NCBI GenBank assembly: GCA_938036315.1
Contig: CALHPK010000002.1
Span: 1 to 64,000 of the forward strand
Source: an uncultured bacterium
GTDB taxonomy: Bacteria > Calescibacteriota > Calescibacteriia > Calescibacteriales > Calescibacteriaceae
DNA length: 64,000 bases
Direction: 5' to 3'
The notes under the pieces: generated by a model
Databases searched by the model: none
What the model was told of the DNA's origin: nothing
Seen by the model: only the letters and a program-made list of their open reading frames with translations
Part shown: one piece after another, positions 25,014 to 26,608 of the stretch
How positions within the stretch are numbered: position 1 is the stretch's first letter
Layout: each line of letters starts with the position of its first letter
Program-made: the position numbers and the translations under genes

Positions 25014-26255
25014 TCAATGGCAGTGTGGTGTTGCTCCTGGGATATGGATCCCTTCCGCTTCTGCAAAGTCAATTTCAGATACTAGATACTTTTTCCCATC
25101 CTTATCAAGAGCGTATATCCGCGTGTACCCCTTGCCCTGAGCAAATAGATAAACATAATTGTTATGGTAGATCCCCTCGCCTGGAATTTCATCAAATTCG
25201 ATCATTGATTCAAGTCCACCTTTTGAATTTAGAATTGCCACCTTCTTTTTATCATGCATAATAAGGAAGAGTTTACCAGGGTATTCGATGCCAAATTGTG
25301 AGAAAAATTCTTCAGGGTATTCCCAGACCCACCATATATCACGAGCTACAAAGTTGTATCCTATAACGCCTTTTTTGAAGATGACATAGCCTATACTTCC
25401 TCCGAAGGTATGAGCATTTGATTTGAATGCTCCTTTGTCATCTAACTTTGAGTACACGGGCGAAAGTTTGTTGTGTTCCTCTCCAATAACTCTATCGATT
25501 CTGAGGTTTTTGGCATCGAAAGAAAGAATAGTTCCTGTTCTGTTGTGAGAAGCCAGCCCCATACCAATTTCTTTATTTATTGATAGATCGAAAAATGCAC
25601 ACTCATCTGGGGTTCCATCTTTCTCTTTGCATGGAGGAACACTTTCAAGCCTCAGATCTTTCTCTATTTTTTTTGCATCAAGGTTCACAACAGATATTCT
25701 GTTATCTGAGAAGTTAGCTACAAACCAGAATCCGTTGTAGTATCTTGCAAAGTGTGGAGTCGAGAAACCTGAAACTCTTGCAATCTCTTCGAGAGTATCC
25801 ACGGATATAAAGGAAACATCTCCGCTATCTTCATTGACTACTGCTACTATTTTGTTAGCATCGTCGATATCCATATGCGATGGGTGTTCACCAACACTGA
25901 TGCTTTTGACCAGAGCTCCGGTTTCACCATCGAAGACATCCACTTTGTTTTGGGCTGAATTAGCAGCAAATGCATACCTGCCATCTTTTGAGAACATAAC
26001 TTGGTGGTATACAGCTCCTGGTACCTGCTTTATGCGCACTGTTTTGCCATTTATGATAATTGCTATTTTCCCTTCTGTTTCGCCACCGAGAACGATTTTT
26101 TCTGGGATGACATCATATGGTAGTTTATTCTCTTTGTCTTCTGATTTGGCACATCCTACAGATAGTATTCCGCACATCAATAAGATGTGAGTTGCCTTTT
26201 TAATTTGTGTTAGACCTTTTTGGGGGGAGTTGTGGTTTAATACTTTTGTCTTCAT
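25014..26255 (-). CDS. Beta-propeller (YVTN/WD-like repeat) lipoprotein, C-terminus HIPGATPHCH
   Basis: ATG 26255 has SD GGGAGGTG 8 nt upstream; lipobox-like LLMCGILSVGC; repeats such as YAFAANSAQNKVDVFDGETGALVKSISVGEHPSHMDID. Confidence 0.78.
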   Translation of the reverse strand: MKTKVLNHNSPQKGLTQIKKATHILLMCGILSVGCAKSEDKENKLPYDVIPEKIVLGGETEGKIAIIINGKTVRIKQVPGAVYHQVMFSKDGRYAFAANSAQNKVDVFDGETGALVKSISVGEHPSHMDIDDANKIVAVVNEDSGDVSFISVDTLEEIARVSGFSTPHFARYYNGFWFVANFSDNRISVVNLDAKKIEKDLRLESVPPCKEKDGTPDECAFFDLSINKEIGMGLASHNRTGTILSFDAKNLRIDRVIGEEHNKLSPVYSKLDDKGAFKSNAHTFGGSIGYVIFKKGVIGYNFVARDIWWVWEYPEEFFSQFGIEYPGKLFLIMHDKKKVAILNSKGGLESMIEFDEIPGEGIYHNNYVYLFAQGKGYTRIYALDKDGKKYLVSEIDFAEAEGIHIPGATPHCH

Positions 26256-26278
26256 GTTTTTCACCTCCCGGAGTTTTT

Positions 26279-26473
26279 TTGCTCTGCTGGGTCTTCCGAC
26301 TTCCCTCAGTGCAAGTTTCCTTGCACTTAGAGTGGTTTTTTACAGAAGTTACCTTCCCAGACGGCAAGCTTTTATTCACCCCACCATCCAGTGGTAACTT
26401 CTAACCACCCATTCGGGTCACGGCGGCCGAGAGACCGCGCCCGAATCCCACGGGCTTCCCCTTCACAGAGCAA
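26279..26473 (-). promoter_or_regulatory. Cobalamin (B12) riboswitch
   Basis: On minus strand: 8-bp closing helix TTGCTCTG/CAGAGCAA; GGGAAGCCCGTGGGATTCGGGCGCGG...CCGCCGTGA; GAAGTTACCACTGG...TGGGAAGGTAACTTC helix; AAGTGCAAG-GAAA-CTTGCACT hairpin; B12-box-like AAGTCGGAAGACCCAGCA (approx. 26289-26302). Confidence 0.92.
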
Positions 26474-26608
26474 CAAAATACTAAAACACCATATCTGTGT
26501 TTTTAATTTTTCAAAATATTTTAATCAGCATCTTCAGGAATTCATAATCATAATGAACCTTGATCCAAAGTCCCAAAATGTCCCCTTGAAAATACATAAA
26601 CCTATAAC

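Follow-up and report, generated by a model that had tools for sequence, protein, structure and literature searches.

Gene and riboswitch at the locus

The window, which is the whole stretch of 64,000 nucleotides that was analyzed, carries on its minus strand a cobalamin riboswitch followed by a gene for a putative beta-propeller lipoprotein. The features of this locus are as follows.

26268..26485, minus strand: cobalamin riboswitch aptamer (RF00174), matched by cmscan with 49.6 bits over model positions 1-189
26262..26269, minus strand: Shine-Dalgarno sequence GGGAGGTG, read from the sequence, directly 3' of the aptamer
26130..26255, minus strand: signal peptide and lipobox region, from the family alignment; in the structural model the N-terminus is of low confidence and contains a single helix
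25014..26255, minus strand: 413-aa predicted eight-bladed beta-propeller lipoprotein with a PHCH end (xCH-tail propeller), from the ORF, its orthologues, AlphaFold and the conserved His/Cys residues

The propeller gene runs from the ATG at 26255 to the stop at 25014 and comprises 413 codons. Near the N-terminus of its product, a hydrophobic stretch precedes Cys35-Ala36, a pair that is invariant in the family and, judged by sequence only, consistent with a lipobox; the protein matches the YncE, lactonase and cytochrome-d1 propeller models and ends in PHCH. These observations agree with the sequence-only reading, in which the gene was taken to encode a lipobox-bearing propeller with this C-terminus. 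As was also claimed there, no BtuB, BtuFCD, Cbi, MetE or Nrd genes adjoin the propeller gene in the window. A ferredoxin gene comes next on this strand, 140 nt away, so that the propeller gene appears to be solitary behind its riboswitch, in line with the same reading.

The riboswitch itself, likewise proposed from the sequence, was recovered by a cmscan search of the entire window as a minus-strand match with an E-value of 2.1e-9, above the RF00174 gathering score of 31.5 bits. The core elements GGGAAGCCCGTG...CCGCCGTGACCC, CCACTGG...GGGAAGG and GTCGGAAGACC are present as had been described. The aptamer thus stands as proposed, but its earlier 5' limit at 26473 does not, since the RF00174 match extends about 12 nt further, to 26485. 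The leader folds far more stably than its dinucleotide shuffles (z -5.9), it is kept across five genomes of the family, and its aptamer is the only RF00174 match in the host genome. The predicted Shine-Dalgarno sequence sits between the aptamer and the ATG, as expected from the initial reading, and the distance from the end of the aptamer to the start codon is 12 nt in the window and 14-16 nt in four relatives. Since this interval contains the Shine-Dalgarno sequence but no terminator-like site, control by the riboswitch at the level of translation would be the simplest reading.

Conservation in the host family and B12 metabolism

The host is a hot-spring bacterium, and its genome (1.87 Mb in 32 contigs) is 85% complete. 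Scanning of genome contigs with the single protein gave no match, and a search with a five-sequence alignment then found four relatives, with matches in Ca. Calescibacterium sp. SKYB43, Ca. C. nevadense, HRbin19 and BF2.bins.44, which places the host genome with Candidatus Calescibacterium. An orthologue is present in 4/4 of the other family genomes examined, at 50-57% identity, or 53-59% when only the matched part is counted. RF00174 occurs once per genome in all five family genomes, each time directly before the propeller orthologue, and scores 58-64 bits in the four relatives. The gene 3' of the propeller gene encodes CobT in two relatives; in a third (G002) it encodes a core methionine synthase. 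Because synteny around the propeller gene is otherwise largely lost between genera, what is conserved as a unit is the riboswitch together with the propeller gene. The methionine synthase of G002 (L028:10441-11475), directly 3' of the pair, is of the core-MetE type and is possibly co-repressed by B12.

B12-binding domains are found in all five family genomes. Contigs C18 and C22 of G002 also contain clusters of B12-binding-domain proteins, nine in all and 460-566 aa long, which might be B12-dependent radical SAM enzymes. Six TP-methylase matches were obtained in the host, five of which are named above the NCBIfam cut-off, namely CobA (CobA-HemD), CbiL, CbiF, CbiH and CbiE-CbiT. Based on these five corrin methylase matches, synthesis of the corrin ring looks largely present in the host, with its genes dispersed. 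A metagenome study assigned ~33-53% of the B12 pathway genes to the host lineage (PMC4791363). CobT was not found in the 85% of the host genome that is represented. A FecCD permease (BtuC family) was found in 0/5 family genomes by a search whose control was positive in 13/14 genomes, and a TonB plug had no match in the host, being detected within the family only in G002 and G004 (3/5 genomes without). Import of corrinoids by the host would thus have no evident machinery.

Fold and conserved residues

Two AlphaFold models were obtained for the window protein, with pLDDT values of 83.7 and 87.5 (pTM 0.84 for the latter). Both contain ~32 strands, read as eight four-stranded blades, and the C-terminal tail is modeled at low confidence (63). 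The residues conserved among 17 sequences map to the gene as follows.

26004..26006, minus strand: codon of H84, candidate pore metal ligand, conserved in 17/17 sequences, at the start of an inner strand in the model
25875..25877, minus strand: codon of H127, candidate pore metal ligand, 17/17
25752..25754, minus strand: codon of H168, candidate pore metal ligand, 15/17
25017..25022, minus strand: codons of the C-terminal Cys412-His413, 17/17, a pair absent from the C-termini of 16 generic propeller relatives

H84, H127, C412 and H413 are therefore invariant, and H168 is missing only from two paralogues linked to RND pumps; conserved His/Cys ligands had been anticipated for this protein. In the alignment and the AlphaFold models, H84, H127 and H168 are found close to where the inner strands of three consecutive blades begin, which would place them at the mouth of the central channel.

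In Foldseek searches the first model drew 1l0q, NirF, the hydrazine synthase beta subunit, BtuG and AztD as its leading matches, with AztD seventh, whereas for the second model NirF, NirN and BtuG-corrinoid complexes ranked high and AztD fell outside the top 50. Query coverage is complete for the propellers of NirF, NirN and cytochrome cd1 (6tv2, 6rte), which also reach the best query TM-scores (0.63-0.66). The modeled fold alone is thus undecisive between a metal and a tetrapyrrole.

Recurrence in other lineages

A profile search for propeller relatives covered 386 genomes; neighboring genes were named by family search for some and by eye from the sequence for the rest. The distant homologues end in x-Cys-His, mostly NYCH, and recur in cobalamin-biosynthesis operons. 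The association with B12 riboswitches that was asked about in the sequence-only reading is thus found for them as well as for all family orthologues. With RF00174 above its threshold and His/Cys ligands conserved, the proposal came through the refuting conditions set in that reading.

Two operon types are directly linked to B12 synthesis. In G009, G157, G425, G423 and one G419 copy, RF00174 is followed by the propeller gene, CbiX, CbiC and further cob genes (CbiD), and the riboswitch-propeller start of such an arrangement is visible up to the contig end in G422 and G426. In G101 and G367 the order is RF00174, CobQ, CobB, propeller, CobO, CobN, a ChlI/D-like gene and CbiX. A small membrane protein without a Pfam or NCBIfam match above cut-off is encoded inside a cob operon (L141:1652-2263); by eye it is a candidate NicO/UreH-like cobalt or nickel permease.

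Several loci also contain transport genes. The RF00174-propeller unit of G395 adjoins a second unit comprised of RF00174, a TonB receptor and PepSY, and TonB receptors with their own RF00174 adjoin the propeller in G423 and G009 too. These receptors fit a siderophore model above its cut-off, whereas they score far below the cut-offs of the BtuB models. Two siderophore-type receptor and PepSY sets with their own cobalamin riboswitch beside the propeller (L144:4119-8925 and L141:10996-16946, the latter also with TonB and EF-hand proteins) may encode cobaltophore or corrinoid receptors. The neighborhood of the G425 propeller includes a BtuFC-like set (BtuF, ATPase, BtuC). Upstream of CobQ and the propeller operon at L140:2160-8940, two further cobalamin riboswitches are found around BtuF/BtuC-like genes and a TonB receptor-like gene.

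On three plasmids of Ca. Manganitrophus (Nitrospirota), a cob operon is followed in turn by RF00174 (about 92 bits), an OprB-like porin and a propeller ending in SPNYCH, which on the GAC1 plasmid is split into two reading frames. Several genes on these plasmids (L149:7426-10215, L150, L151), the GAC1 propeller among them, are split by apparent frameshifts. Second copies in G419 and G422 follow the order RF00174, porin, propeller, adaptor and RND pump; at L145:3067-7015 and L143:1-5533, the riboswitch leads an OprB-like porin with a Cys-rich N-terminus, the propeller, a CzcB-like adaptor and the RND pump. The RND-linked homologues adjoin CusA/CzcA-type pumps and heavy-metal-binding adaptors. 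A heavy-metal RND system is present in G033 and G315 with no RF00174 nearby, and the G315 propeller additionally adjoins the cobalt transport genes CbiM, CbiQ and an ABC ATPase. One generic tail-less relative sits among copper genes.

Overall, RF00174 is located upstream on the same strand in 20/22 testable xCH-tail loci vs 0/16 tail-less propeller loci within the stretches scanned. The Fisher p-value is 4.6e-6 by locus (matches within 1.5 kb) and 8e-6 after collapse by hand to nine lineages, both to be taken as guides because the loci are not independent. In a maximum-likelihood tree the tail-bearing proteins fall on one side of a branch with a support of 92/94, and the Calescibacterium sequences are placed on a very long branch (3.36).

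A putative cobalt chaperone made when B12 is short

The host's only B12 riboswitch precedes the propeller gene, and relatives of this gene in other bacterial phyla lie in operons for B12 production or metal transport; the propeller is therefore probably an undescribed part of the bacterial capture of cobalt, or of B12 itself. Our favored explanation, which we hold with modest confidence and prefer over a corrinoid binder of the BtuG or NirF kind, is that of a putative extracytoplasmic cobalt chaperone or scavenger produced when B12 is in short supply. What was observed directly is the riboswitch and its conservation, the recurrent proximity to genes for cobalamin synthesis and metal transport, the class of fold, and the set of conserved residues. 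That the ligand is cobalt and is held in the pore, which way the riboswitch acts, to what partner the metal is passed and where in the cell the propeller resides are inferences from these. A lipid-anchored eight-bladed propeller outside the cytoplasm would bind Co(II), probably in the central pore via H84, H127 and H168, with the C-terminal Cys-His assisting, and would hand the cobalt on for cobamide synthesis. At low cobamide levels, the riboswitch would be unoccupied, the ribosome site open and the propeller made, and at plentiful cobamide the aptamer would close the ribosome site.

It is the genomic context that makes us lean toward cobalt rather than a corrinoid. The partners of the propeller include the chelatases CbiX and CobN as well as CbiM/CbiQ and RND systems, and the host appears to make B12 de novo and to lack an importer of the FecCD type. 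The cobalt reading is favored by the single RF00174 ahead of the propeller gene in every family genome, by the homologues that lead riboswitch operons ahead of the chelatase CbiX, CbiC and CbiD, by the propeller gene placed between CobB and CobO, by the gene order on the Ca. Manganitrophus plasmids, and by the homologues beside CusA/CzcA-type pumps and, in one case, beside CbiM-CbiQ-ABC ATPase. The corrin methylases of the host, CobT as the next gene in two relatives, and the lack of FecCD matches in five genomes and of a TonB plug match in the host argue in the same direction, as does the seventh Foldseek rank (first model) of AztD, an eight-bladed propeller that holds zinc in its pore by three His residues. 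Counting against this reading are the position of AztD outside the top 50 for the second model, for which BtuG-corrinoid complexes and NirF rank high, the low confidence of the C-terminal tail, the BtuF-ATPase-BtuC set near the G425 propeller, and the long branch of Calescibacterium.

The ligand could instead of free cobalt be a corrinoid, whether cobamide, cobinamide or an intermediate of the corrin pathway, and a pore His might then coordinate its cobalt axially. This is a live though rather unlikely rival, given the example of BtuG and the nearby TonB receptors. BtuG is a riboswitch-controlled propeller lipoprotein that holds B12 in its central cavity (PMC10404256, PMC6143338), and BtuG-corrinoid complexes and NirF/NirN are among the best Foldseek ranks for both models; the receptors with their own RF00174 in three genomes and the BtuFC-like genes of G425 could be read in the same way. 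However, FecCD is absent from 5/5 host-family genomes and a TonB plug from 3/5, the adjoining receptors resemble siderophore rather than BtuB receptors, BtuG differs in blade number and known distribution, and the associations with CbiX, CobN, CbiMQ and CusA are metal associations.

Less probable still is that the metal handled is a different one, such as zinc, copper or nickel, or that the propeller is an enzyme taking the place of a B12-dependent function, which would explain repression by B12. The former would suit the RND-linked members with their CusA/CzcA-type pumps and heavy-metal-binding adaptors, as well as the tail-less relative among copper genes, but the genes that recur beside the propeller belong to cobalamin synthesis rather than to copper or zinc. 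The latter would suit the gene 3' of the propeller gene in G002, core-MetE being a B12-independent type of methionine synthase, but no enzyme family model matches the propeller above cut-off. Finally, an ordinary YncE-like propeller placed beside a riboswitch by chance, or via annotation of a decayed element, is very improbable: generic propeller repeats are common and RF00174 is weaker here (49.6 bits) than in other lineages, but this idea is already contradicted by the recurrence of RF00174 at xCH-tail loci and not at tail-less ones, and by the five conserved orthologous leaders.

Extending the cobalt chaperone reading beyond the host, we tentatively suggest, as a possibility that we would not yet call likely, that the xCH-tail propellers form a dedicated family of extracytoplasmic cobalt metallochaperones under B12 riboswitches in several phyla, which in some lineages would pass cobalt along together with a Cys-rich, OprB-like porin and either an RND or a CbiMQO system; such a relay would be an undescribed envelope route for cobalt into B12 synthesis. 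Extracytoplasmic capture of scarce cobalt and its routing to corrin synthesis are poorly known, and a 2021 review lists no confirmed cobalt-specific outer-membrane receptor (PMC7689651). Our literature search, which reached few of the subscription journals, found no work that joins such a propeller to cobalamin synthesis. The xCH propellers offer a defined family with named candidate ligands and a built-in response to B12, open to direct in vitro work, and the proposed role accounts for the sole B12-riboswitch gene of an uncultivated lineage. It also flags the B12-controlled porin-propeller-RND operons, as induction of an RND system by low B12 would be unexpected if such pumps export metal only.

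Comparison with known systems

BtuG (3dsm, 8bai, 8okv) resembles the window protein as a propeller lipoprotein under a cobalamin riboswitch, the lipobox here being assigned by sequence. In contrast to the eight blades predicted for the window protein, BtuG is seven-bladed, and it has been reported only from Bacteroidetes; it is partnered with BtuB and has a corrinoid ligand, whereas the host has no BtuB or BtuC match and its propeller has an xCH tail. No btuB or other Btu transport genes adjoin the propeller in the window or in the family loci. Membership in BtuG, considered on the basis of the PDB matches, was rejected because generic YncE-type proteins match at least as strongly and the number of blades differs. 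Models of L-NosZ, hydrazine synthase and PQQ propellers were also rejected, as they share only repeats and score far below cut-offs.

NirF, NirN and cytochrome cd1 bind haem d1 and are encoded in nir operons. The likeness to NirF is one of fold only, and no nir genes occur in the neighborhoods read.

The predicted cobalt transporters CbtAB to CbtG, CbtX and CbiMNQO were likewise found by their position in B12 operons or under B12 riboswitches. Among the Cbt systems the comparison covered CbtG, which is described as membrane-spanning (PMC4428469), unlike the xCH propeller, which is predicted to be soluble or lipid-anchored.

A loose analogy with AztD was proposed from the sequence, and it suits both the class of fold and the pattern of ligands. 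In AztD of P. denitrificans, an eight-bladed zinc chaperone, the pore holds His124, His167 and His218, while the C-terminal His408 serves a second zinc site (PMC6689063). The NCBIfam AztD model lists 4/11 members at E-values up to 5, the best being 1.9e-4, short of its cut-off and without the window protein. No AztABC zinc transporter genes occur in the neighborhoods read; searches of plasmids yielded no AztD for residue alignment, and a phage search for propeller relatives gave nothing. Like AztD (PDB 6n01), the window protein is predicted to be an exported eight-bladed propeller, and it ends in His; H84, H127 and H168 may correspond to the three pore His residues conserved in AztD, whereas the xCH tail is particular to the window protein. 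AztD is repressed by the nutrient that it serves, as would be expected of the xCH propeller under its B12 riboswitch, with Zur exerting the control in one system and the riboswitch in the other.
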